NCBI GenBank assembly: GCA_963965975.1
Contig: OZ014415.1
Location: forward strand, 6,763,001-6,827,000
Direction: 5' to 3'
From: Xestospongia bergquistia
Lineage: Eukaryota; Porifera; Demospongiae; Haplosclerida; Petrosiidae
Length of the DNA stretch: 64,000 nucleotides
This document shows positions 14,634-63,812 of the stretch, piece after piece; the first letter of the stretch is position 1, and every line of letters starts with the position of its first letter. The notes below the pieces were generated by a model, which saw only the letters and a program-made list of their open reading frames with translations, had not been told where the DNA came from and ran no database searches. A program made the translations under genes and the position numbers.

Positions 14634-15272
14634 CATCCATGTATCCATCATTCCATTCATCTATTAATTCTTCCATCCATTTCTCCATTAATGTTGATGG
14701 ATTGATGAATGGATAATTTGATAATATCCCTTGCTCCACCCATTCATTTATTAATTCTTCCGTCCATTTTGATGGTTGAATAAATACAATGAAGAGAAAG
14801 ATGGAAGATAATAGAGGGATGGAACAGGATTGATGAATGGATGTCTTGATCCACCCATTCATCAATGTAAATTTATCCATTTATATATTATCACTAAACT
14901 CCACCCATTGACTTTTTATTGTTTATTATTTTATATAGTGGTTCTATGGGACCAGTTGGAGTATTTGCTGCTCTCAGTTACTGTTTTCAAAGAGCTAGAA
15001 AGGAGCGTTTAGTTGATCTCCTTCAAACTGTCAATCATCATCATCTGCAATGTCCTGGACTAATCAGTAATCTACAACTGTATGCTTACTGCTATGACTG
15101 TTTAGAGGACTACACAACAAAGTTATTGAAAGAGACATCAGAGCCTCCAATCTATGAGAACATTGCCTCATTTCATGGCAAATTACAACCTTCACCAGAA
15201 CCCACTTTACCAGAACCCATTGATGAGGCCCGTCTAGAAGTTGAAGAACTAGGATACGATATAGTTGACTAA
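12393..15272 (+). CDS. Receptor-type tyrosine phosphatase, copy B (5' end missing)
   Basis: Nine exons are readable: 12,393-12,512, 12,607-12,767, 12,937-13,072, 13,429-13,636, 13,785-13,825, 13,882-14,010, 14,101-14,226, 14,357-14,521 and 14,939-15,272. Domain 1 shows KCYQYWP, the WPD loop (TAWPDKN) and, across a splice junction, the complete signature HCSAGVGRTG, so its catalytic Cys and Arg are present. Domain 2 has IHD followed by GSMGPVGVF, with Asp in place of the catalytic Cys. Vertebrate receptor phosphatases gamma and zeta also have Asp there, so D2 is probably a pseudophosphatase. The N-terminal half of domain 1 and any membrane segment or ectodomain are not visible upstream, so this copy is truncated or its 5' exons have diverged beyond recognition. 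Long CT runs lie in introns (12,546-12,600 and 14,580-14,629). It converges on Kelch-Death copy B. Confidence 0.75.
12546..12600. repeat. (CT)n microsatellite
   Basis: An almost pure CT run forms the polypyrimidine tract directly before the acceptor of the WPD-loop exon at 12,607, so length changes here could affect splicing. Confidence 0.9.
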
Positions 15273-26264: not shown

Positions 26265-27069
26265 TAGAGTAAAGACAAGTACGAGTTAACTATTCATTAT
26301 TTGCACTATCAATATGCATTATCAATATGCACCATCAAACTTTGTTGAGTTTGTTACGGAGTTTCTGAGAGAATCAGATATACCAGATTGTAATGGTAGA
26401 CCAATAACAATACATGATAAGTTAGTAAACACACATGTTCTACATAATGTGTTTGTCTATTGATCTCCATCTATTCATCATTCCATTTCTCTCTCTCTCT
26501 CTCTCTCTCTGGATAAATACAATGAATGGATAGAAGAAAAAAGAATGATTTATAATTTAATCTATGGATAGATGAATGTATTGATGGAAAGATAATGGAT
26601 TGATGGATTGTAGATAGATGAAAGGACAACTTACATCATTAACATTAATATATTTATCATTACACTTACCTATTCATTGATATATCCATTTATTCCATCC
26701 ATCCATTCATTTATCTATCTATTCATTTTATAAAGTGGTTCAATGGGACCAGTTGGAGTATTTGCTGCTCTCAGTTACTGTTTTCAAAGAGCTAGAAAGG
26801 AGCGTTTAGTTGATCTCCTTCAAACTGTCAATCATCATCATCTGCAATATCCTGGACTAATCAGGAATCTACAACTGTATGCTTACTGCTATGACTGTTT
26901 AGAGGACTACACAACAAAGTTATTGAAAGAGACATCAGAGCCTCCAATCTATGAAAACATCGCCTCGTTTTGTGGCAAATTACAACCTTCACCAGAACCC
27001 ACTTTACCAGAACCCATTGATGAGGCCCGTCTAGAAGTTGAAAAACTAGGATACGATATACTTGACTGA
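26265..27069 (+). pseudogene. Receptor-type tyrosine phosphatase, decayed copy C
   Basis: This holds the last two exons only. The exon at about 26,268-26,430 matches 14,357-14,521 but has an insertion (an extra HYLHYQYALS-type repeat) and a frame break before the VCYGVS-like part. The final exon (26,736-27,069) is intact and over 90 percent identical by eye to the other two, with GSMGPVGVF. All upstream exons, including the catalytic domain, are absent, so it is almost certainly not a functional phosphatase. A CT run lies at about 26,490-26,512. Confidence 0.7.
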
Positions 27070-35623: not shown

Positions 35624-37960
35624 AAGGGCTGATCCAGGGGGAGTGGTAAGGGTGGATTTCCACCCCCCTTTTCTCATGAATTACTTAATATAAATAATTT
35701 TAATAAAGGTAATAATTAATCAATTGAAAAGGACTGAATCACAAGTAATTTTTTTAGGGTCTCTTAATTTAAATTGTTCACAACATTTTTCTATACTTAT
35801 TTCATAATTAAATCCTTGCATCCCTATTACACCTAAATTGCCAAGTCTGTCAGAAGTCATTGTTGTTCGCAAACATGTGTGAATCTGTCTTAAACACGAA
35901 AATGATCTTTCTGCTTCTGTACTACCTATTGGAAGAACTGCCAGGATACATAAAAGCTCCCTGACATTTGGATAAAAAATGGAATCAGTATCTAATTTAA
36001 GTAGACTCGTTACTGATCTTGGTTCTTTGATACTTTCACAGTGTACTTTCCATCGTCTAAGTTCACTTTCAAAGTATCTGGTGATGGCATCAGATGGGTC
36101 CATTTTGAAGCTAGGAGATCAGCTGTGTCACTAATATTACTTTCATCCTTTTTAGTGATGATTTCAGGAATTAAGGAGCAAAGCTCATAATGTGCCCGTT
36201 TTTCTGGTGCAAACCTACACTCTAACTCAGAAACAATTGAGTCAAGGAAGGGAATTGTAACTGTTACTTTCCAGTAATCCTTTGGAGATGTAACATCAGG
36301 ATTTGATCTCATTGTTTGTCTTCCCTTCAGTATGCGTGGCATGTCCTCATTACTCCCTATGTCATCTGCCAGCTTGAGAGCTTTAGAGTAAACAGAATTG
36401 TGCTGAGTAGATACATCTTCCCTCATTCTCTTGTAGGCCTCTTTTACTTCATCAACCTTTTTAAAGCCAAAGTAAACTTCCTGTAGTCTTCCTTGAAGGC
36501 ATTCAGCAATTGGACGAATTGGTTCCAAAAGTTCTTTTGCAATCAAGAAGATGACTATGTGCTCTAATTTACAGAAAGTGTGTCGAAGCCATTTGCATAA
36601 CTGCGAGACTCAGAATCCCAGTTCCAATGATTGCCTTCTGGATATAACTGTTCCTCATCACTTGGATGGCATATTTCATTCCAAGTTTGAACAAGATATG
36701 GATATAATTCAAAAATAGCTGTAAAAGTGGTATGTTGTTCAATCCATCTGGTTTTGCATAGGTCATTTATTTTAACTTTCTTTGCATGATTAGGACAAAA
36801 ACATTTGATTACCATTTCAAGAAATCTTTGGCGCTTTGGGGAATTATCAAAGAACAAAAATGCTTGATGGCAGCTGTCTATCATATAACAGATGAAATTT
36901 TCGAGGAGTTGCATATTACAAGGTTTAAGCTATGTAATACGCATCCTTGGTAAATCGCATCATGCAGGAGCAAATTTCTGAATATGAGCTTATACACCTG
37001 ATCTTGAAGAACTCATAGAGGCTGTAGTGTCGTATGCTTGCCCACGACATTTTGTTACATCGATTTCATGACATTCAAATACCTTTAGGATACCCTCAGC
37101 TATCTTTTCCCCTGTGATTCTTTCTAAGAAGTGAAAATCCAAGAGGATCCCGGACCTCGTGTTTCTTGGCAACAAATTCAGTGTTAGTCCTAACTTCCAG
37201 AAAGCGTAAGCAAACTGATAAGATCTCTTTACCATGAGAAGTTACTTCATCTGCTATCACTGAAAAGTGAGGACAAATCATCAAGCAATCTCGATAAAAT
37301 TGACGAATTTGTGTGGCAGCTATTTCTAGGGTTTCATTTTGGATTGTTTTGCTAATGCATTTTTTGGACCAGAAACTATAGATGCGCCTGCAAAGTGCTG
37401 TTTGTTTTGGCAAGCAGTCTTAAAATAGCTATGAAATTACCTTCATTGAAACATTGAGGCTTGGACAAATCTATCTTGACTTGTTTATGTCCTTGCAAGG
37501 CCACTTTCTGCCTGGCACAAGTTAAAACTGCTTCTACTAAGACATGTAAAATTTCAGAATTGAACAAAAAATTTTTCTGATTAGTATCTGTGAGTCTACT
37601 GTCAATTCTGATTTCTGGATTGGAATAGCTAGCTTTGAAGGTGTACGATCTCTGAACTGCACGCAAGTGATAAACATTTTTGCATCCTAGTCTTTCGGCA
37701 TAGGACGACCAAGTTTCTTGGCTTGGGGTGAATTGAGAAATTTTTCCTTGAACTGACATGACTTTACCCTCGTCGCCAATGTTGTAGCCGAGCACGCTAT
37801 GAAAACAACTTTAACTATAATGAACTTTTTAACAACAGGACTAACGACAGAACAGAACTAAACTAATAAAAAATATTAGAGCTATATATACACATATAAG
37901 GTTTCAACGGAAATTAAGTAAAAAAAGCCTTAACAGAAATAATAACTCAAAATGAATATT
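35624..37960 (-). mobile_element. Degenerate hAT transposon relic
   Basis: Similarity between the upstream regions of Kelch-Death copies A and C stops at about 35,624, where this element begins (caagggctgatccaggggg, with a GGGTGGATTTCCACCCCCC palindrome inside). It holds the broken transposase listed separately. The other end is not clear; Kelch-type intron sequence resumes at about 37,968. I could not find a matching inverted repeat, so the right end may be truncated. Confidence 0.65.
35720..37795 (-). pseudogene. hAT-family transposase, broken (ZMYM/P52rIPK-like)
   Basis: Fragments in several minus-strand frames line up in the order of a long hAT transposase: an N-terminal part with GHKQVKIDL...NEGNFIAILRLLA (37,376-37,795); a DUF4371-like part with FSVIADEVTSHGKEILSVCLRFL (37,096-37,413); ITGEKIAEGILKVFECHEID...KCRGQAYD (36,990-37,235); a middle helical part (36,010-36,914); and the C-terminal dimerisation part with STEAERSFSCLRQIHTCLR (35,720-36,103). 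At least four frameshifts or stops separate them, so it is inactive. The family is known from many animals as TTF-type or zinc-finger MYM-type hAT elements. The first about 30 residues (FTPSQETWSSYAERL) resemble a Gag-like motif; I give that little weight. Confidence 0.8.
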
Positions 37961-41319: not shown

Positions 41320-42856
41320 AGTTGTTCCCATCCACACATGCATCTATCCATTGACCCTATATACATACATGTACATAATGTACACATGTACACTCACTCT
41401 GTTGATTAGATTGTAGTGTTGTTATGGTCTTAACCTTCTTTTTAAGTTCAGTTATATAGTTGTCCTTCTCTTGTACTATAGTAAAGTAAGTAACAACACT
41501 TAATGAAATATAGTTTGTTTGTTCAATACATGAACAGATACATTAATTAACAATCCTTTGTATTGTCCATTAATTTATTTAATCATTCATCCATTACTTC
41601 ATTCATTTATCAATTCTTTCATTATATCCATTGACCCTATATACATACATGTACATATATACACATGTATACTCACTCTGTTGATTAGATTGTTCAGGTT
41701 GTTTCTGTAGTGTTGTTATGATCTCGTCCTTCTTTTGAAGTTCAGTTATATAGTTGTCCTTCTCTTGTACTATAGTGAAGTAAGTAACAACACTTAATGA
41801 AATATAGTTTGTTTGTTCAATACATGAACAGGTACATTAATTAACTATCCTTTGTATTGTCCATTAATTTATTTAATCATTCATCCATTACTTCATTCAT
41901 TTATCAATTCTTTCATTATATCCATTGACCCTATATACATACATGTACATATATACACATGTATACTCACTCTGTTGATTAGATTGTTCTAGTTGTTTCT
42001 GTAGTGTTGTTATGATCTCATCCTTCTTTTGAAGTTCAGTTATATAGTTGTCCTTCTCTTGTACTATAGTAAAGTAAGTAACAACACTTAATGAAATATA
42101 GTTTGTTTGTTCAATACATGAACAGGTACATTAATTAACTATCCTTTGTATTGTCCATTAATTTATTTAATCATTCATCCATTACTTCATTCATTTATCA
42201 ATTCTTTCATTATATCCATTGACCCTATATACATACATGTACATATATACACATGTATACTCACTCTGTTGATTAGATTGTTCTAGTTGTTTCTGTAGTG
42301 TTGTTATGATCTCGTCCTTCTTTTGAAGTTCAGTTATATAGTTGTCCTTCTCTTGTACTATAGTGAAGTAAGTAACAACACTTAATGAAATATAGTTTGT
42401 TTGTTCAATACATGAACAGGTACATTAATTAACTATCCTTTGTATTGTCCATTAATTTATTTAATCATTCATCCATTACTTCATTCATTTATCAATTCTT
42501 TCATTATATCCATTGACCCTATATACATACATGTACATATATACACATGTATACTCACTCTGTTGATTAGATTGTTCTAGTTGTTTCTGTAGTGTTGTTA
42601 TGATCTCATCCTTCTTTTGAAGTTCAGTTATATAGTTGTCCTTCTCTTGTACTATAGTAAAGTAAGTAACAACACTTAATGAAATATAGTTTGTTTGTTC
42701 AATACATGAACAGGTACATTAATTAACTATCCTTTGTATTGTCCATTAATTTATTTAATCATTCATCCATTACTTCATTCATTTATCAATTCTTTCATTA
42801 TATCCATTGACCCTATATACATACATGTACATATATACACATGTATACTCACTCTG
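41320..42856 (-). repeat. 294-bp tandem array of a coiled-coil exon
   Basis: Six register points of the same phrase (gttgattagattg) fall at 41,401, 41,680, 41,974, 42,268, 42,562 and 42,856, giving spacings of 279 and then exactly 294 bp. Each unit contains, on the minus strand, one exon (93 bp in full units, for example 41,971-42,063) with intact splice sites and symmetric phase 1. It encodes a 31-residue coiled-coil piece (QEKDNYITELQKKDEIITTL and onward). The same exon occurs once in Kelch-Death copies B (about 20,963) and C (about 31,758). Units 2 and 4 share two base variants against units 3 and 5, so there is a 588-bp higher-order period. The array runs into an assembly gap. Confidence 0.9.
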
Positions 42857-43056
42857 NNNNNNNNNNNNNNNNNNNNNNNNNNNNNNNNNNNNNNNNNNNN
42901 NNNNNNNNNNNNNNNNNNNNNNNNNNNNNNNNNNNNNNNNNNNNNNNNNNNNNNNNNNNNNNNNNNNNNNNNNNNNNNNNNNNNNNNNNNNNNNNNNNNN
43001 NNNNNNNNNNNNNNNNNNNNNNNNNNNNNNNNNNNNNNNNNNNNNNNNNNNNNNNN
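42857..43056. other. Assembly gap (200 N)
   Basis: Exactly 200 unknown bases. It separates the tandem exon array from the 3' part of a two-pass membrane protein gene. The round size suggests a placeholder, so the true distance and even the join are uncertain. Confidence 0.95.
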
Positions 43057-43629
43057 ATGCTGGATTATAAATATTATAAGACATTTCATCTCCTATTTTG
43101 AGGGAAGTAGTAATGAGTTGATTTGGAGTATAAGACTTGAGTAAAAGACCAGTACCAATAGCACTAGATATCAAAAAAACACCAATGACCACGGCACATG
43201 TAGTTATACACTTTCTATGTATCTTCTTATTCTTGTCTATGAAGATTTAAGATCTTGATAAAGATGGGTATCAATAAATATTCTTTACTAACCTGAGTTA
43301 ATAATGTTAATTGTTTCATCATTAGCTGTTGGAAGACCTTGAATACTGCCATAATTAGATACTCTATTGTGTAATGATGATTGATGATAGAGACTTTCAC
43401 TTGATGAATATTTATTATTACTACTTATAATATTTTGAGTACTTTCCATGTCTACACAAGAATAGGTAAATATGCTAAATTAATAGATTGTTAATATTAA
43501 TACCAAAATCACTTAAGTCTGTAGGCAAATCATTGTGATCTTTTATAACTTGCTCTGTTGATACTAAATATGGTCATTATATAGAAGTAAGTTCATCTAT
43601 AATATTCATAACTTACCATTTTGGGCCAT
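43057..43629 (-). CDS. Two-pass membrane protein family, member 1 (N-terminal part; cut by gap)
   Basis: Four exons are readable. Exon 1 (43,617-43,629) encodes MAQN. Exon about 43,502-43,564 gives an acidic stretch (DHNDLPTDLSDF). Exon about 43,293-43,451 gives the cytoplasmic motif SSSESLYHQSS...NYGSIQGL. The next exon begins at about 43,239 and encodes the first membrane segment (CAVVIGVFLISSAIGTGLLL) and the start of the ectodomain (SLKIGDEMSYN). It then enters the assembly gap. The exon pattern and both motifs match member 4 at 53.5-54.9 kb (ETLHHQSS...NYGSVQGL, SLKIGDN). It is head to head with the small protein gene at 43,931, about 300 bp away. Confidence 0.7.
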
Positions 43630-45808: not shown

Positions 45809-47185
45809 TTAGCAATAAATTCCATGTCTATAGCGCTTACACAAAGTTATTGTAACAATCAGTAAAGGAATTCCAATGATTACAGTGAAGATTATAAGAC
45901 TAATTATGAAAAAGGTCATTCTCGTTTGCCCATAAATTCTTGGAGCAGAAAAAAAATAGGACACTTGGACGTTTCCAGTAGGATTCACCAATAAGTATTC
46001 GTTATTTCTATTGCAATAGAATTGGCTGCACAAAGTTATTTGGCACAATGGATGGTCAGCAGACAAAGGTACTGTACAATTATCTGGACTCTTCAGTCCA
46101 TTTATGTTATAATACACATGAAATACTGACACATTACTGTCAACAGTGATGCCATTATCTATCTCTATGCCAACATAGTAAGAACCAGTGACATTGATCA
46201 TCCAAGTGATGTTAGTTGATGATTGTGTGATGTTCACAGGAAGACAAGGTGAAAATGCCACTGCATTTATAGATCTAGATTTGTTGCTTTTAAAATTAAT
46301 ATATGATGAGAAATTGTCGAAGAGGTAGAGACGAGCTGGACATTTAGAATTGTTGTTAATGACTATGTTCATGATATATGTGAAATGTGAGTTGGGTAAT
46401 AAGTAAATAGGTTCATCTGCACCATAATAGTTGTAATTGTAACGTGATAATCCAGGGAGTTTTGGTATTTCTACTCGTGGCAAGTATTGTGACTTTTTAG
46501 TTGGTTTAGATGAACTTATGTAAACAGTAGCGGTTTCTCTTTGTGATTCTATCAGTTTTATGCTGACTAAAGCAACAGGTGAGGAAAGAGATATGAGAGC
46601 AGAACTGCTAGAACTCTCATCTCCAATACCCTGTAAAGAGCTGGGAGGAGCCTTAGATGATAAAATTGATGACAAAAGGATTGCAATACCAACTACAAGT
46701 CCAAACACACAAAGTGTTATTATACTTATGATGATGATTCTCTCTATTGAAAACGTTTTAAGATAAGTTGTTATAAACAGAGAGTGAGTAGTTATTACTA
46801 ACTTACTTCTTTTTTTATTAACATTAGTTGGTGGAATAGGTATGGCATCATAATTGGAACCATCAGAGCTAAGTGTCAAGTGTCTTTCTTCTTGAATTGT
46901 GGGAGTCACATGTGAACGACTTTTAGAGAGACCAGTTACTCTTTCATTTAGTGGAATCCTAAGACCCACATCTTGATTTTGATGAGGATTTGTTAAGTAT
47001 TGTTCTGTAGGATTTAAATATTACATCAAATTGAGAGACCTACAAAATAACACCACATATGTCAAGTTTAAGAAATAACCTGATTCAGATATGTCAGCAG
47101 TTCGGGAATGATTATAGCTGTCGCTCTGAGCCGGTTCAGGATGCACATATTGCTGTCCTATTTCTTCTGAATCGTTTGAAGCCAT
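45809..47185 (-). CDS. Two-pass membrane protein family, member 2
   Basis: Three exons: about 47,080-47,185 (MASNDSEEIGQQYVHPEPAQ), about 46,804-47,014 (to NVNKKR) and 45,809-46,743. The cytoplasmic N-terminus of about 100 residues is followed by a membrane segment (IIIISIITLCVFGLVVGIAI). A lumenal or outer domain of about 250 residues follows, then a second membrane segment (FFIISLIIFTVIIGIPLLIV) and a short basic tail. Family signatures in the ectodomain are RYNYNYYGADEPIYLLP, CPARLYLFDN, YYVGIEIDNG and a Cys-rich end (LSADHPLCQITLCSQFYC). There are many N-glycosylation sequons. I do not recognise the ectodomain; a beta-sandwich is likely from the strand pattern. It is divergent from the small protein gene at 47,844. 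Confidence 0.8.
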
Positions 47186-49031: not shown

Positions 49032-50600
49032 TTAATCTGTTCTTGATTGACAGTTAAAAATGTGCTTACAACAATCTATTAATCTTTTATTTTTGTAAGC
49101 AAGTATAGGCAGAGTGATTGCAATAATAATGGCAGCGACAACGAACAGTAAACTAATGATGAAGCCAGCCATCTTTGCCGACCCATATATTTTAGGAGTA
49201 GAGAAAGAATAGAACACTTCAACACTGCCGTAAGAATTAACTAACAAATATTTGTCACCTCTATAACAAAAGAAGCTGCACAATGTGACTAGGCAGGATG
49301 GATGATCAGCGGACAGGTACTCAGGACATTCACTGGGTCTCTTAAGTCCTGTAATGTTGTAGTATACACGAATTACTGACACATAACTAATTACATTTGT
49401 TCCAGTGTCTATCTCAATGGCAACATAGTATAAATCTCGTTTAGTAATATTGAAACTGAAATTACTATTCATATGCGACTGTGCCATGCTTTTAGGAAGA
49501 CATGGTGATGATTCCACCTCAGTGAATGATTTATTGTTCTTAAAATTGACATAAGATGTCACATTATCAAAAAGATAGAGACGAAGTGGACAAGTAGAGT
49601 TGTTATTTACAATTGCATTTATGATGTATATCAATTTTGAATTTGGCAATAAGTAGATTGGTTCATCACCACCATAATAATTGTAATAGTGACGAGATGG
49701 TCCTATCAGTACAGGTATTCTATTTTGTGGAAGATGTTTGCTAATTTCAACTGGTTTATATGAACTTAAATAAACATCAACTGTTACACTTCCAGGTCTG
49801 ATAAGTGTTATATCAACTGAAGAGACATTTGAAGAAAGGATCATAAGAGATGAACTGTCAGGACTTTTGTCTCCAATTACAACATTCTCTGAATTATTAG
49901 AAGGAGGGGTAGGTAGTAAAATCGTTGGCAAAAAAGTAGCAATACTGATTATGATAACAACAAAAGTCACCACAATAGTTATAATACTTGTTAGACAAAT
50001 CTTTTTGCATTCTATGATAACAAATGATATTGAAAACAAGTTAACATTATTTTGTCTCTTACTTGTAGAGCTGCTGTCATTAGCGTCATTGTTAACACTA
50101 TTGTTGAAAGAACAATAATCACGGAGAAAAATTCCACGATTATTTGTCTTCCCACTATCAGTTGCTGGGATAGGGTGGCGTAGTAGGGGAGTATTTTCAT
50201 GATTCAGCCCTAGGCCTTATTGGTAAAAGTTAATAAATTGTACAATTGTCTATGTATTAAGCTATATATTGTTATATATTATGTTGTATTATTTAATTTA
50301 TAATAAGTATAATAGAAGCGCGAGGCAACTACTCCTAACGGTGCTGCAAAGTCTCACTCCTTAGATTAGTGGTTCGATCAAGCTTAGGAATGCACTAAAC
50401 TCGATGAAATGAAAAGCAAACATATTTAAAACAATTAAAATATGTGTATAAGATGTCTAGAGCAGTGTGAAAGTGAACAAGATCAAAGACTAAGTTAGAA
50501 GTTTGGTATACAAAATTATGTTACAAATAGTAACTTTTATTTTGTAAGTCCCATTTGTCATCAAATCTAACCTATCACGGCACGGGACAAACCCCGTACT

Positions 50601-53477: not shown

Positions 53478-54898
53478 TTATTCAGAATTTATTTCTGATC
53501 TAGCTGAAGGTATATGCTGTATGTATTTTATGATTAATACTCGATAGTAAATGAGAAATAAAAAGAATGATACTAATGCTATTAGAGAAATGATAAATAA
53601 AAATAGAGAGAAGCCAAAGCTGATAATATTATCTTTTCCATGAATATTAGCATTTGAAGTAGTATATGTTATCTTGACACTACCCGTTGGTTTGATAAAG
53701 ATGTAAGTAGTAGCTATTGGTCTGTTACATATAAAGTCACTACTGCATAGTGTCCACTTACAAGATGGATTATTGGCAGACAGAGGCTGACTGCACTCAC
53801 TTGGACTCTCCAATCCTGTTGTGTTATATTGTATACTGATTACAGACACATTACTGGTCACACTAACTCCATCATCTATCTCAATACCAACATAATAAAG
53901 GGAAGGCTCAGTTATATTGAGTGTAAATGTTGTACTAAATGTTGTGTTTGGTGGGTGTACTGGTGAACAAGATGTGTATGTTGCTTTATAAGGTTCATAG
54001 TTCTTAAAATTCATATAATTTGTTTCATTACTAAAGAGGAAGAGGCGGGCAGGACAATCGGATGGAATATCAACAAAAATAAGGAGTTTGTAAATCAGTA
54101 CTGACTTTGTCAATAAGTAGATTGGTTCATCAGCACCATAATAGTTGTAATTATAACGAGATGGGCCTGAGAGCTCAGGGATTCTAGTTCTTGGAAGATG
54201 CTCCATCCTTTCAATAGGCAGTGTAGCAGTTTCATAAACAACAGCTTTTACATATCGTGGATGTATTAGTGTTATTTTTATGGAAGAGATTGATGACTTT
54301 AGATTGACTAAGGGAAATAGGTAAGCTGTAGAAATTCCATTGGAAAATGCATTATCCCCAATTTTGAGTGATTTGGTGAATTGATTGGTTGGGTTATATG
54401 AACTACAAAAAAGAACTGCGCCAACACTGCCAGATATTAAAAATATACCAATTACTATAACAAATGTAATTGTACACTTTATTAGAATCTTCTTATCATT
54501 ACCTATAATAATAAAATATGGATGATGATGATGATAACCTTCTATGCATTATTACTGACGTTTGCCTCTATTATCGATGGCCTCATCATAAAGTATTGGA
54601 TTATTTACTAGCCCTTGAACACTGCCATAATTAGATCTTTTTATGGGGGATGATTGGTGGTGAAGAGTTTCATTGGACGAATATTGATCAGATCTGTCAA
54701 TAAGATTACGAGTTTCTTCAATGTCTATTATATAAGGCAAAATAGTAAAGAAAGATTATTAAAGTTATATATACCTGAGTCATTTGAGTCGCCTATTTCG
54801 TTTTCTATATCTGTTGCAACTTGTCTAGATCCTAAATGTGTTTATTATATATATAGGGAGGAAAATTTGTATATATTCTTACCACTTTGAGCCATCAT
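53478..54898 (-). CDS. Two-pass membrane protein family, member 4
   Basis: Exon 1 (54,883-54,898) encodes MMAQS; exon about 54,775-54,832 encodes GSRQVATDIENEIGDSNDS; exon about 54,560-54,727 has NETLHHQSS and NYGSVQGL; the last exon (53,478 to about 54,505) holds the first membrane segment (CTITFVIVIGIFLISGSVGA), the ectodomain (RYNYNYYGADEPIYLL, CPARLFLFSN, YYVGIEIDDG, LSANNPSCKWTLCSSDFIC) and the second membrane segment (GFSLFLFIISLIALVSFFLF). It ends IPSARSEINSE. It is closest to member 1 in the N-terminal exons. The donor of exon 3 is unclear: the obvious GT leaves the wrong phase for the next exon, and only a GC donor at AGAG/GCAAAC would fit, so this splice is either unusual or damaged. 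Confidence 0.75.
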
Positions 54899-56098: not shown

Positions 56099-56620
56099 TC
56101 ATAAATGCATTATAACATAATGTTGTAGATTCCATGTCTGTTAAGCATTAAATGCATTATAACATGATGTTGTAGATTCCATGTCTGTTAAGCATTAAAT
56201 GCATTATAACATAATGTTGTAGATTCCATGTCTGTTAAGCATTAAATGCATTATAACATGATGTTGTAGATTCCATGTCTGTTAAGCTATTAATTGCATT
56301 ATAACATGATGTTGTAGATTCCATGTCTGTTAAGCATTAAATGCATTATAACATGATGTTGTAGATTCCATGTCTGTTAAGCTATTAATTGCATTATAAC
56401 ATGATGTTGTAGATTCCATGTCTGTTAAGTATTAAATGCATTATAACATGATGTTGTAGATTCCATGTCTGTTAAGCTATTAAATGCATTATAACATGAT
56501 GTTGTAGATTCCATGTCTGTTAAGCATTAAATGCATTATAACATGATGTTGTAGATTCCATGTCTGTTAAGCATTAAATGCATTATAACATGATGTTGTA
56601 GATTCCATGTCTGTTAAGCA
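56099..56620. repeat. 47-bp minisatellite, about 11 copies
   Basis: The unit contains gcattataacatgatgttg and tagattccatgtctgttaag. Most units are 47 bp; some have the variant ctattaattgc and are 48-49 bp. Copies are nearly identical, so the array is young or homogenised. Confidence 0.95.
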
Positions 56621-57379: not shown

Positions 57380-58180
57380 TTAGTTGCTAATTAAGGTGAT
57401 TTTTATTTTGCTTTCACTTACAGCTAATAAAGAAATATTCTTACCCTTAACAGTATTATCCTGTAATTGACTTGCTATTTTGTGAGCTAACTTCTCTTCA
57501 TTTATAGATGATGAGGAAAGAATACTTAGCATTGTGCACCAGTTAAATCGAGTTTGATTAGCTTCCCATTGTTCTAAAACTGCCCTAAAGAATTCCTTAG
57601 GATCTCCACCATATGATGTGTTTTTTTTAATTCCATCTAGCTGATTTGGCCCAATTCCTAGTTGAGTAGCAACATTTTGCCATTCACCGGGAATCTTTAC
57701 AACAGAATATATATGTAAAGTAGTATAATATGTATAATATGCAAACTGTACATTCATACATGTGTTCAACCACATGACTGCTAACTGTATGTGCAGGTAT
57801 ATACTGTAAAATTGATTATTTGGTTATGTACGTTACAATTACAATCTTAATTTTGTTGAAAAAGTAATCATGCGTTCAACCACATGACTGCTAACTGTAT
57901 GATCAGGTATACTGTAAAATTGATTATTTGGTTATGTAGGTTACAATAATTGTAATTTTATTTTTGTTGAAAAAGTAATCACAATACTGTTTATATTACT
58001 AATGTACTACTGCTTATGTAGCTACATAGCCATTAATGTCATAGTATATTAGTAATGAAAATAGTGTTATGTTTACTTTATGTATATGCAACCTGTATAT
58101 AACTATGTATTAGTTAATCAACTACCAATTTTTACAGTGTACTGCATACACATGACTTCATAACTAGCATAGCTTATATC

Positions 58181-58222
<42 letters not shown>

Positions 58223-58719
58223 GGTTGAAGTATTAAGGTGCTTTTTATCTCTAGAGATGAAATAGATTACTTTTTTTACAAAAGCAAAAAAAGAACTCAT
58301 GGAATAAATAAAAAATAAATATCATGCTGTTAAAATATATTAGTTGTTTTAACCAATTTATGATCACTACATGTAGATTGCATACATGCCTACAAAATAC
58401 ATTGAAAAGTCTTGATAACATACGCGGTTTTGTTTCCTAATTATTAAAATTAACAGTTCATGTACTTCAGGAAATGACTTGTCAGAAAGGACATATATGT
58501 GATATGTAGGACAGACCTATTATAAATTCCGCAGTGACATACATAGGCCCATGCAGCATCCATAAAAAAAGTTTTGCTAAGCAATGAGGTATTGAATGTT
58601 ATACATTGACAATTAACTACATAATCACCAAGTGCAATCATATATAACAGTGTGATGTTTAATTTATCAGTGTCTTATATGCACGCTAAATGATTTATAT
58701 ATATACGTGTGTGTGTGTG

Positions 58720-58758
<39 letters not shown>

Positions 58759-60104
58759 TGTTTGATTATATCCTTACCTCAGCCACAACCAAGTTCATCA
58801 ATGTAGGTATATCAATACTATATTTTGAAGTGTTACGGTATTGAATGAATTCTGAAAAAGCAAATAATGTATGAACATCATTATAGGAATTAATTGACTC
58901 ATGAACATGTATGTATGCATGGATTTATTTGATTGAATGTTAACCTTTTTTATCTTCTATTGGCAATGACACTGTATGTTTTCTTTTATCGACAGTTTTA
59001 TCTATATTTTTAGAAAGTGTGAATTGATTGACTGTTTGCATTAACAGGTAATACTGAATTAGTTATACTTGAAACATGGCTATGTATATACATGAAAATT
59101 ATACTTTATTATACCTGATGAATTTCTTCTTATTGACCAACATACACAGATACAAATCAACACAGAAGAAATGATAACAACTACTAGAACAATTAAAGCA
59201 ACACTTAGAGTGGCAATTTGTCCTCTCTTTTTTGAAAAGAATTGTTCCTCTCTTTTAGTATATATAATGTTACTGGTAGAGTTTACTAGCAAATAGTATT
59301 GATCATTACAGGCAAGGGCTTTTTGGCATATTGTCACCTTACAGTAAGGATTGTTGTTAACAGACAGCTGTTCACTACAATAATTTTGTTTATCAAAGTC
59401 AGCTGTATTATAGAATACATGTTCCACTGAAATGTAACCAAAAACAGAGGTATTATAACCAATATATATACCGGCATAGTAAGATGCTGTTATAGTAATT
59501 TCAAAACTCCATGTTTGGTTATGTGGAGCAGGAAACAAACAAGATGAATTATCGAATGAATTTGTGTAGCCATTCTTAAAATTTTCATATGCTTGCCTGT
59601 TCTTGAATAAATAAAGTCGTGCTGGACATGATGAAGTAGTTATACCAGTTACAAACAATATATATATAAGTTTTGAACCAGCAAACAAGTAAATAGGAAC
59701 ATCACCACCATTGTAATTGTATACATATGGAAATGGTCCATTACGTTGAGACTTTGAAATCACTCCACTTAATTCCCTGTGCTCTGTCGGCTTATTAGAA
59801 GTTAAAAGAGCATTTATCTGTGCTTCTTTAGGCTCTATTAGTGTAATAATGATTGAAATAACTGATGAATCAAGTTTAATAAGTTCAGGGCCTTGTGTTG
59901 TTATTGGTTTGGTGGTGTATATAGGTCTTGTCAACAGTAATGATGGAGCAATTATACAAGATATTACAACAACTGTAGCAATAATACATGTAGTTATTAT
60001 AGTACCTACCAAACAAAAAAAATTGTATAAGTAATGGAAGCAAGGATGTAGATACAATATACATAGAATTACTTACAATCAGCTTTTCTCGAAGTCATTG
60101 TCAT
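57380..60104 (-). CDS. Two-pass membrane protein with cytoplasmic Death domain (member 5)
   Basis: Five exons in good phase: 60,077-60,104 (MTMTSRKAD), 59,115-60,005, 58,945-59,001, 58,778-58,851 and 57,380-57,694, making 454 residues. The very short N-terminus leads to a membrane segment (IIATVVVISCIIAPSLLL). The ectodomain follows the family pattern (YVYNYNGGDVPIYLFAGS, CPARLYLFKN, YYAGIYIGYN, LSVNNNPYCKVTICQKALAC) with several sequons. The second membrane segment is ATLSVALIVLVVVIISSVLI. Then comes a basic linker and a Death domain over the last two exons: IDIPTLMNLVVAE, then WQNVATQLGIGPNQLDGIKK and FFRAVLEQWEAN...INEEKLAHKI. The Trp, the LG pair and the EQW motif fit the Death-domain family well. 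Other members of the cluster lack this tail. It should signal to a cytosolic Death-fold adaptor. Head to head with the small protein gene at 60,336. Confidence 0.8.
57765..57985. repeat. Tandem duplication of about 110 bp in an intron
   Basis: Two adjacent copies share ttcaaccacatgactgctaa and tgattatttggttatgta. They lie in the intron between the last two exons of the Death-domain receptor gene. Confidence 0.85.
58180..58222. repeat. (TA)n microsatellite
   Basis: TA run interrupted by one CA, within the same intron of the Death-domain receptor gene. Confidence 0.9.
58697..58757. repeat. (TG)n/(TA)n microsatellite
   Basis: TG units then TA units then CA units, close to the donor of exon 4 of the Death-domain receptor gene. 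Confidence 0.9.
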
Positions 60105-60335: not shown

Positions 60336-61078
60336 ATGGCTCAACTTATTATAGACGGATGTCGTCAGTGTAACGTAGCTGAAGAGATTGAAGAACTAAC
60401 AAATATTCCTAGAGACAAATTTCGGATTAAGAGAGTTCCGTCTGAAAAAACTAGTGGAGATTCTTTTGACGTAGTAACAGGTCATCGATCCATCATCGAA
60501 CAAATCTACGAAGCCAGAGCTAATTTTCCTCGTTGGTGGAGCATTCCAGATGCTCCAGGTCCTATTGATCCGTTTGTGGTCAAACTTACATATTCATCGT
60601 GTGCAGTTACTAAAATTCCTGCCGATGGAATACACGAGATATTGCTTAATGCAATTGAAAATGATAGTCATCAAGTTAGTAAATAAAATGTCAAAAAGAC
60701 TTTACAGACAGTTCTGTATTTTTTACAGGTTGTTTATAGTATTTTGCTAAAGATACAGCTCGAGGATACACCTAATTGGTATAGAGATTTTTCTACACCA
60801 CATGCACCTGTACAACCAGTCCTTAAAGTTGATGTGAGAGGATTTACACCATCAATTACAACACCTGGTATTTTTGACCTTGAAACTATTTGTGAAGCAG
60901 TTAATGATACTTGCTGGGGTGATCACTGGTGAGATACTCATCTTTAGCTTTGTACATTTATCCTTTCAATAGTATTCTTTTAACATCTTCATGTACTTGT
61001 TTGGAAAGACCAAAATTTATCCCAGTTCCAAGAACAAAACCATATCTACCACTGCCTCAGCCTCCAGACCATAACTAG
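60336..61078 (+). CDS. Small orphan partner protein, member 3
   Basis: Three exons: 60,336-60,674, 60,729-60,928 and 60,973-61,078, making 214 residues with the frame closing exactly. It starts MAQLIIDGCRQCNVAEEIEE. Shared blocks are IPRDKFRIKRV...FDVVTGHRSIIEQIYEARA, FPRWWSIPD, DPFVVKLTYS, then YSILLKIQLEDTP and QPVLKVDVRGF, the last matching QPVIKVDIRGL of member 1. The tail is proline-rich (YLPLPQPPDHN). No membrane segment. The acceptor of exon 3 was chosen at 60,972 because it restores the family's Cys-Ile/Leu-Leu-Thr start (CISLTTNC in member 1); a later AG gives a shorter tail. It forms a divergent pair with the Death-domain receptor gene. Confidence 0.75.
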
Positions 61079-62633: not shown

Positions 62634-62771
62634 TTTCATGCGTACTCTTGGCGGCCATTCCTTAGTAGGAGGGGCCAGTCGTTCAGCTGCCTACTCTAGT
62701 GGGAGTCTAGGGACAAGGACTAAGAAAATAAATGGAGAAGAAGGAATCAACAGCAACTGAAAAGGCAAAAA

Positions 62772-63812
62772 ATGGTCAGTTTAGAGAGAGTATATAACAA
62801 TAAATATTTCATTAAGTTTATAGGATATCTTTCCAAGGTAGGAAAGTCAGGAAACCATCTCTTCTGTTTTATGATAGTAGTAATAGGAACATTATTGTTA
62901 GTTTGTGTTCTTGGTATGGTAGGTTTCTTAGTGAATTCCAAAGTAACAGCTCATAAGACACCAGCTACATTTGAGACAGTAGTTGCAGAGGATGATACTA
63001 TAGTTTTAGTTAATATTGACGTTGCTTTAGTTAAAACGATATCAATCAATGAAAAAATCAATCAAGGTGATAATAATCATCATATAACATTAAGTTTAGT
63101 CCCAATCAACCAATTGACATACAAAACAAAAATAGAGCAACACTTTTGGAATGGATCAACAATTGTAGACAACTTACCCATTATTAATGAAATGTATGTA
63201 TATTTACTTCATGGCTCAATCTTGAAGTATAAAATTTGCTTGGGCAATGCTCAAAGAATAGCTTCAACATATCTATATATTTTCGATAATGAAGAAAGCT
63301 ATATAAATTATATGGAATACAGTGCTTTAGATCCACCAGTACTAAAACAAGAGATACAAATTGGCGGGAAAAATATTACCATTTGTACTAACATCACTTT
63401 TGAAGCAAAAGTAGATGCTTACTATTATGCTGTGTTGTTAGCACCTGAAGCAAGTACTGATTTCTCTTACAATGTGATAGCTACTGAGAATGTAGTAGAC
63501 ATTAATGATTATCTTGCAGATTATTCTACTTGTGTCATTGATAATTCTAATGTGTGTGTTTTACAAACAAGTTCATCGTCATTTCCTCATAGTGAAGAAA
63601 TGGTTTTATTAGCTTATGCAAAACCTAATTACAATTTTCAATCGAAAATTAATCATGTTCAAGTATCTTTCAAGGGCAGATCTCTTATAATTGTAATAAT
63701 AGCTTCTGTACTAGGAGCAGTCATTGTTTTATTAGTTTTAGTCTTTTTTGTTGTCATTTTTGGTGTTTTTATGTTGAAAAGGAAAAGGAGTGGATATATA
63801 CCAATTAACTAG
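62772..63812 (+). CDS. Two-pass membrane protein family, diverged member 6
   Basis: A single open frame of 346 residues. It has a short N-terminus, a membrane segment (FMIVVIGTLLLVCVLGMVGF), an ectodomain of about 240 residues and a strong second membrane segment (LIIVIIASVLGAVIVLLVLV), then KRKRSGYIPIN. Size and topology match the minus-strand family, and there are local echoes (STYLYIFDNEESYINYM against ARLYLFDN...YINF; AYYYAVLLAP against SYYVGIEID; Cys pair near the end). The YNYYGADEPIYL block is reduced to EMYVYLLHGSILKY. So it is a distant relative in the opposite orientation, without a partner gene in view. An upstream coding exon cannot be excluded, as a second frame (MEKKESTATEKAKNGQ) overlaps the start. 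Confidence 0.7.
   Translation: MVSLERVYNNKYFIKFIGYLSKVGKSGNHLFCFMIVVIGTLLLVCVLGMVGFLVNSKVTAHKTPATFETVVAEDDTIVLVNIDVALVKTISINEKINQGDNNHHITLSLVPINQLTYKTKIEQHFWNGSTIVDNLPIINEMYVYLLHGSILKYKICLGNAQRIASTYLYIFDNEESYINYMEYSALDPPVLKQEIQIGGKNITICTNITFEAKVDAYYYAVLLAPEASTDFSYNVIATENVVDINDYLADYSTCVIDNSNVCVLQTSSSSFPHSEEMVLLAYAKPNYNFQSKINHVQVSFKGRSLIIVIIASVLGAVIVLLVLVFFVVIFGVFMLKRKRSGYIPIN

Follow-up and report, generated by a model that had tools for sequence, protein, structure and literature searches.

We have analysed a window of 64,000 nucleotides from the sponge Xestospongia bergquistia (GenBank assembly GCA_963965975.1, contig OZ014415.1, positions 6,763,001 to 6,827,000), in which a minus-strand gene at 60104-57380 has been confirmed to carry a Death domain after its second membrane segment. 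The sequence-only reading of this DNA, whose interpretation overall is partly supported, had described a five-exon gene of this kind, and the gene now stands with exact coordinates, GT-AG boundaries at all four introns and support from profile comparisons. Exon joining and translation have yielded a protein of 464 residues, whose ATG lies at 60104 and whose stop ends at 57380; an ATTAAA is found ~77 bp beyond the stop. The anatomy, i.e., a first transmembrane segment (TM1), an ectodomain, a second transmembrane segment (TM2) and a Death domain joined in phase within one gene, which belongs to a family with varied modules, is judged highly probable. The parts of the gene are the following.

60077..60104, minus strand: exon 1, with the start codon and an N-terminal tail of only 9 residues (MTMTSRKAD), ending in phase 1, donor GTAAGTAA
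59115..60005, minus strand: exon 2, length 891 bp, phase 1 at both ends and hence symmetric, with TM1, ectodomain and TM2
59932..60005, minus strand: TM1, residues ~10-34, Kyte-Doolittle hydropathy up to 2.69
59218..59931, minus strand: ectodomain, residues ~35-272 (~240 residues), possible distant APD1-4 relation
59131..59217, minus strand: TM2, residues ~273-301, Kyte-Doolittle hydropathy up to 3.42
58945..59031, minus strand: exon 3, length 87 bp, likewise symmetric with phase 1 at both ends, predicted cytosolic linker
58778..58851, minus strand: exon 4, N-terminal part of the Death domain, entered in phase 1 and left in phase 0
57380..57694, minus strand: exon 5, remainder of the Death domain (ending at ~57461), followed by a short tail and the stop

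The ectodomain has been found to contain six cysteines and four N-glycosylation motifs. Exon 3 is symmetric, and consequently the Death domain stays in frame with or without it; an earlier acceptor for this exon has been dropped, as it breaks the frame, and the next AG gives an open frame.

By Pfam alone, the Death domain of the window gene is borderline. Against the curated cut-off of 22.6 bits for Pfam Death (PF00531), scores of 21.5 bits (exon 5 open reading frame, ORF), 22.4 bits (exons 4 and 5) and 19.2 bits (whole protein) have been obtained, so that all three cuts fall below it. The domain belongs to a Death subfamily with seven further places on C1 and C13 (40-53% identity to the window domain), and it shares 43-54% identity with five C1/C13 modules. 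Pfam scans of five related domains without their first exon have returned three Death matches under the cut-off, one weak match to a gag protein and, in one case, no match. It is the profile comparison, beyond the borderline Pfam score, that supports the Death-domain identity: a six-module profile has aligned to one built from seven further Death domains, drawn from the Death matches of the same genome, with an hhalign probability of 94.0 (score 43.6, E-value 1.4e-7), the best column shuffle scoring 16.1 and 0 of 100 shuffles reaching the Death score. Structure prediction from the single sequence of exon 5 alone has given five helices and low-confidence strands (pLDDT 65), and its structural matches have not been discriminating.

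The exon structure points in the same direction. A phase-0 intron site, at which a GT follows without a gap and an AG immediately precedes the next exon, is common to all six Death modules compared (the window module and five others; the L040 module was left out), the residues at the site being VVAE, VVAK, IVSQ, IVAE or IVAK. As judged by eye, the entry acceptor of each of the six agrees with phase 1, least surely in L039. Based on this common site and these common phases, exons 4 and 5 have the appearance of a transferable Death module made up of two exons. The ratio of non-synonymous to synonymous substitution rates (dN/dS) of the Death exon has been determined to be 0.21-0.29 in four of four pairs, with a dS of 1.2-2.4, which is near saturation. 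The same two-exon module has also been seen downstream of tyrosine-kinase exons in L043 (C1:1936422-1940432), conceivably a kinase carrying a Death tail.

The window gene is one of a family. A search with exon 2 (28 candidates, all scored) has found 20 places, all of them on C5, some within the window and the others at 7.485-7.676 Mb, and a diverged member at 62724, used as the query, has found five places, likewise on C5. Each of 20 tabulated ORFs shows hydrophobic peaks near its two ends (2.1-3.7 and 2.6-3.6, the script taking the best peak within each end of the ORF), and 4-8 cysteines and 3-12 N-glycosylation motifs lie between the peaks. Outside this table are a broken second copy of a ZU5-like member, a partial match at 7517028-7517429, the member at 7621061, the N-interrupted stretch at 42782-43246 and small fragments. 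Modules have been traced by a Death profile on the fetched regions and by reading of the ORFs, and four members have been found joined to cell-death modules, namely the window Death gene, a caspase-tailed sister, a member with a Death domain before TM1 and a ZU5-like member. The third of these (C5:7499593-7501457, 449 residues) has a Pfam-positive Death domain (34.9 bits) joined in phase ahead of TM1. In the fourth (C5:7675806), a 49-bp intron that keeps phase 1 is followed by a ZU5-like exon (16.6 bits, cut-off 21), and the Death-type ORFs downstream match the in-house Death profile only. Its second copy is broken by an in-frame stop within the ectodomain, behind which ORFs of ZU5-like, Death-type (two, with 32.2 and 16.2 bits) and CARD-like kind are found. 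A tie of this membrane cluster to Death-fold signalling, as had been claimed from the window gene, thus now comes from several family members, and the better reading of these loci appears to be a receptor family in which some members carry exchangeable cell-death tails.

The clearest case of another tail is the sister at C5:7490503, which is 62% identical to the window gene and whose gene model begins with exon 2. After the exon 2 donor, a 42-bp phase 1-1 exon and then a Peptidase_C14 exon follow in a single open frame, and the caspase tail (PF00656) scores 74.4 bits in Pfam (cut-off 21.4). In this putative caspase, GHGG and DCC stretches are present, which would provide the catalytic His and Cys. 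In caspase relatives, the homology starts upstream of the possible internal ATG in 9 of the 25 other rows compared. With a motif that misses the L049 caspase, a phase-1 acceptor on the caspase exon has been seen by eye in the four relatives shown. The nearest caspase, at C4:7237787 (69% identity), also has a 42-bp exon of the same phase with a similar peptide (by eye; tblastn E-value 0.036), and a Pfam-positive Death ORF (30.0 bits) lies upstream of it, and the two may form one Death-caspase gene. As the DNA alignment between window gene and sister extends 32 bases into exon 3, there are hints that the sister formerly had the tail of the window gene and later swapped it. Between these two genes, the ectodomain dN/dS amounts to 0.60 (NG86) or 0.48 (YN00); its contrast to the Death exon is compared at different depths and may be taken as indicative only. 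At C5:7482635-7483178, the receptor caspase is present once more as an incomplete copy, with one in-frame stop reported.

Taking the anatomy and the tails together, it seems somewhat more probable than otherwise that the window gene encodes a two-pass receptor acting in death or defence. How such a receptor would signal can be proposed with the balance about even. An outside ligand or a surface protein of a neighbouring cell would cluster the receptors, and the clustered Death domains would nucleate a Death-fold assembly that recruits a Death-containing protein from the cytosol. This protein could be an apparent Death-caspase like that at C4:7237787, and caspase activity would then drive a death or defence response. 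In the sister, with its caspase fused directly, the adaptor step would be skipped, and members with short tails could be co-receptors, decoys or ligand partners.

Death domains also act in non-lethal pathways, and an assembly serving self-recognition or NF-kB-like activation rather than death is a possibility that we regard as real, if rather doubtful. The clustering on one chromosome and the divergence of the ectodomains would suit recognition, whereas the caspase carried directly by the sister argues for a lethal output. It is unlikely that TM1 represents a cleaved signal peptide, which would leave a mature single-pass protein with a Death tail. The N-terminal tail of the window member, with just 9 residues, would be in keeping with it, but a signal peptide would rarely have a hydrophobic stretch as long as the ~25 residues seen here, and open stretches of up to ~105 codons (counted stop to stop, with the starts not determined) precede TM1 in other members. 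Based on these long stretches and on the one relative with a Pfam-positive Death domain at that place, an uncleaved TM1 and a two-pass protein with both ends in the cytosol, as the sequence-only reading had it, gain support, albeit not proof; the charges flanking TM2 are not decisive for the topology.

A gene boundary between exon 2 and the Death exons is less likely still. In this case exon 2 would end a short-tailed protein, as in most tabulated members, and a separate gene would own the Death exons. The donors of exon 2 (AG|GTATAA) and exon 3 (GTTAAC) are indeed poor matches to the consensus, and 16 of the 20 tabulated ORFs show no recognised module in these scans, which is not proof of absence. 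Exon 4, however, requires an upstream exon ending in phase 1, the gap between exons 2 and 4 is only 263 bp, and the exon 2 donor is identical in the sister, where it likewise leads in phase to a cell-death module. That a common Death domain stands behind a membrane exon by chance, or in a pseudogene, is hardly credible: the Death repertoire of the genome is indeed very large, with at least 150 places over the Pfam cut-off (a lower bound, 150 of 983 candidates having been scored), and one family copy carries the in-frame stop, but the window gene is open throughout and joined in phase, the intron site within its Death domain recurs in the other modules, the dN/dS of the Death exon is low and three other members are joined in phase to cell-death modules.

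The sequence-only reading had called the ectodomain an unknown family. Pfam scans of family members have returned no ectodomain family over the cut-off, and the reading is changed insofar as the domain may be a distant relative of the two-pass APD1-4 proteins. PF16041 (APD1-4_M) has been met under its cut-off of 25 bits in one of 17 members (E-value 0.1, 15.3 bits) and in one further member (16.1 bits), PF16040 in none of the 17 scanned, and a C-terminal RING has had no Pfam match in the proteins scanned. Two C12 proteins pass an APD1-4 cut-off, and both are of two-pass layout (TM-ectodomain-TM, by eye). The family profile has matched these two with a probability of 93.8 (E-value 1.8e-7) when the transmembrane segments were included. 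Without them, 17 members have given a score of 27.8 (E-value 0.0025, probability 11.7) and 19 members a score of 36.9 (E-value 8.6e-5, probability 60.1), in both cases reached by 0 of 150 shuffles; the two most diverged members alone have scored 21.0, which 1 of 150 shuffles reached. The similarity spans ~115 columns, and the target profile consists of two sequences only. On this mixed evidence, a distant APD1-4 ancestry of the ectodomain is considered rather probable.

Among known systems, the closest in logic are the TNFR-type death receptors Fas and TNFR1, single-pass proteins with cysteine-rich repeats, in which an outside domain, a membrane segment and a cytosolic Death domain are likewise coupled to clustering. 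The window gene differs in its two hydrophobic segments and in the lack of TNFR repeats, for which Pfam scans of the protein have given no match at E-values up to 1 (filters dropping most matches above 0.1); the claim that the ectodomain is not of TNFR type is thereby borne out. Plant APD1-4 proteins (PF16040/PF16041) are two-pass RING ligases, and they are similar in the layout of the two C12 members and in profile, although no sponge family member scanned exceeds the Pfam cut-off and no RING has been matched. UNC5 and PIDD are ZU5-Death proteins, to which the member with the in-phase ZU5-like exon and downstream Death-type ORFs may be compared; its ZU5 match, however, stays below the cut-off, and the window gene has no ZU5. 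In a further sponge genus, Amphimedon, the accessible part of one report lists two CRD proteins in A. queenslandica, none with a Death domain (PMC4979521), and that of another describes a large expansion of Death-type and TRADD-N proteins with varied C-termini including caspase (PMC8195603). The latter resembles our case in the expansion and in the varied tails, but names, within that part, no two-pass receptor of this kind, and a two-pass Death receptor in sponges is not described in the accessible parts of either report. TRADD-N has been considered in the present genome through Pfam scans of single proteins only.

The two-pass protein with its Death tail and the sister genes with other cell-death modules, one of them a caspase, suggest a kind of death receptor that is built unlike ours. 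Tentatively, one may postulate that death receptors arose a second time, in a sponge lineage, from a two-pass and perhaps APD1-4-derived surface protein whose tails were swapped among Death, ZU5-Death and caspase, including a receptor-caspase. If true, the receptor-caspase would unite sensing and killing within one polypeptide, and it would become apparent how, in an early-branching animal, a death signal could pass the membrane with no TNFR-type death receptor involved. The Death-tailed receptor and its caspase-tailed sister form a natural comparison, and consequently the adaptor bypass is directly testable.

The Kelch genes of the window had been put forward as a source of partner Death domains. 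Three of their Death domains share 25-29% identity with that of the window gene in a rough alignment (best BLAST E-value 4e-4), compared to the 43-54% of the C1/C13 modules, so that they do not appear to be its closest relatives and a preference for them by kinship is not upheld. For one Kelch gene (2317-2640), the terminal domain has given a match to the CARD-like last ORF behind the broken ZU5 copy (32% over 96 residues, E-value 3e-15); between the same loci, the ZU5 parts have given a non-significant E-value of 0.32 and the Death parts no significant match. Three closely similar plus-strand ORFs (390-761, 14898-15269 and 26734-27066) accompany the Kelch gene array, and in the interval from these genes to the receptor cluster, ORFs resembling a hAT-type transposase in their motif have been noted (35723-37810, minus strand).

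Further features of the receptor cluster in the window are these.

53481..54755, minus strand: family member with short C-terminal tail; the adjoining ORF 54552-54755 may be its N-terminal tail
49035..50216, minus strand: family member, open for a long stretch at its N-terminal side, C-terminal tail short, exon 2 match
45812..47020, minus strand: family member, likewise open for a long stretch at its N-terminal side, C-terminal tail short, exon 2 match
42782..43246, minus strand: family-like fragment, broken by the window's run of Ns, no exon 2 match, recognised by eye
62724..63809, plus strand: diverged two-segment member, no exon 2 match, sub-threshold APD1-4_M (16.1 bits, cut-off 25)
60336..60935, plus strand: divergent head-to-head small-protein gene, two-exon reading by eye, ATGs 232 bp apart

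The first ORF of the small-protein gene has had no Pfam match. Of nine cases found for its family, eight are in head-to-head orientation no more than 1.5 kb from a receptor-family ORF, and the receptors with Death and with caspase tails are among these, with the caveat that in two of the eight the nearer member is tail-to-tail and that one of the eight is a mixed ORF. In this last case (C5:7516509-7517486, minus strand), one ORF fuses the N-terminal half of a receptor-family protein with the small protein of the head-to-head pairs. A minisatellite-like array has been observed by eye at 56120-56620, downstream of the Death gene; its unit, present in many copies, contains TGTTGTAGATTCCATGTCTGTTAAGC.
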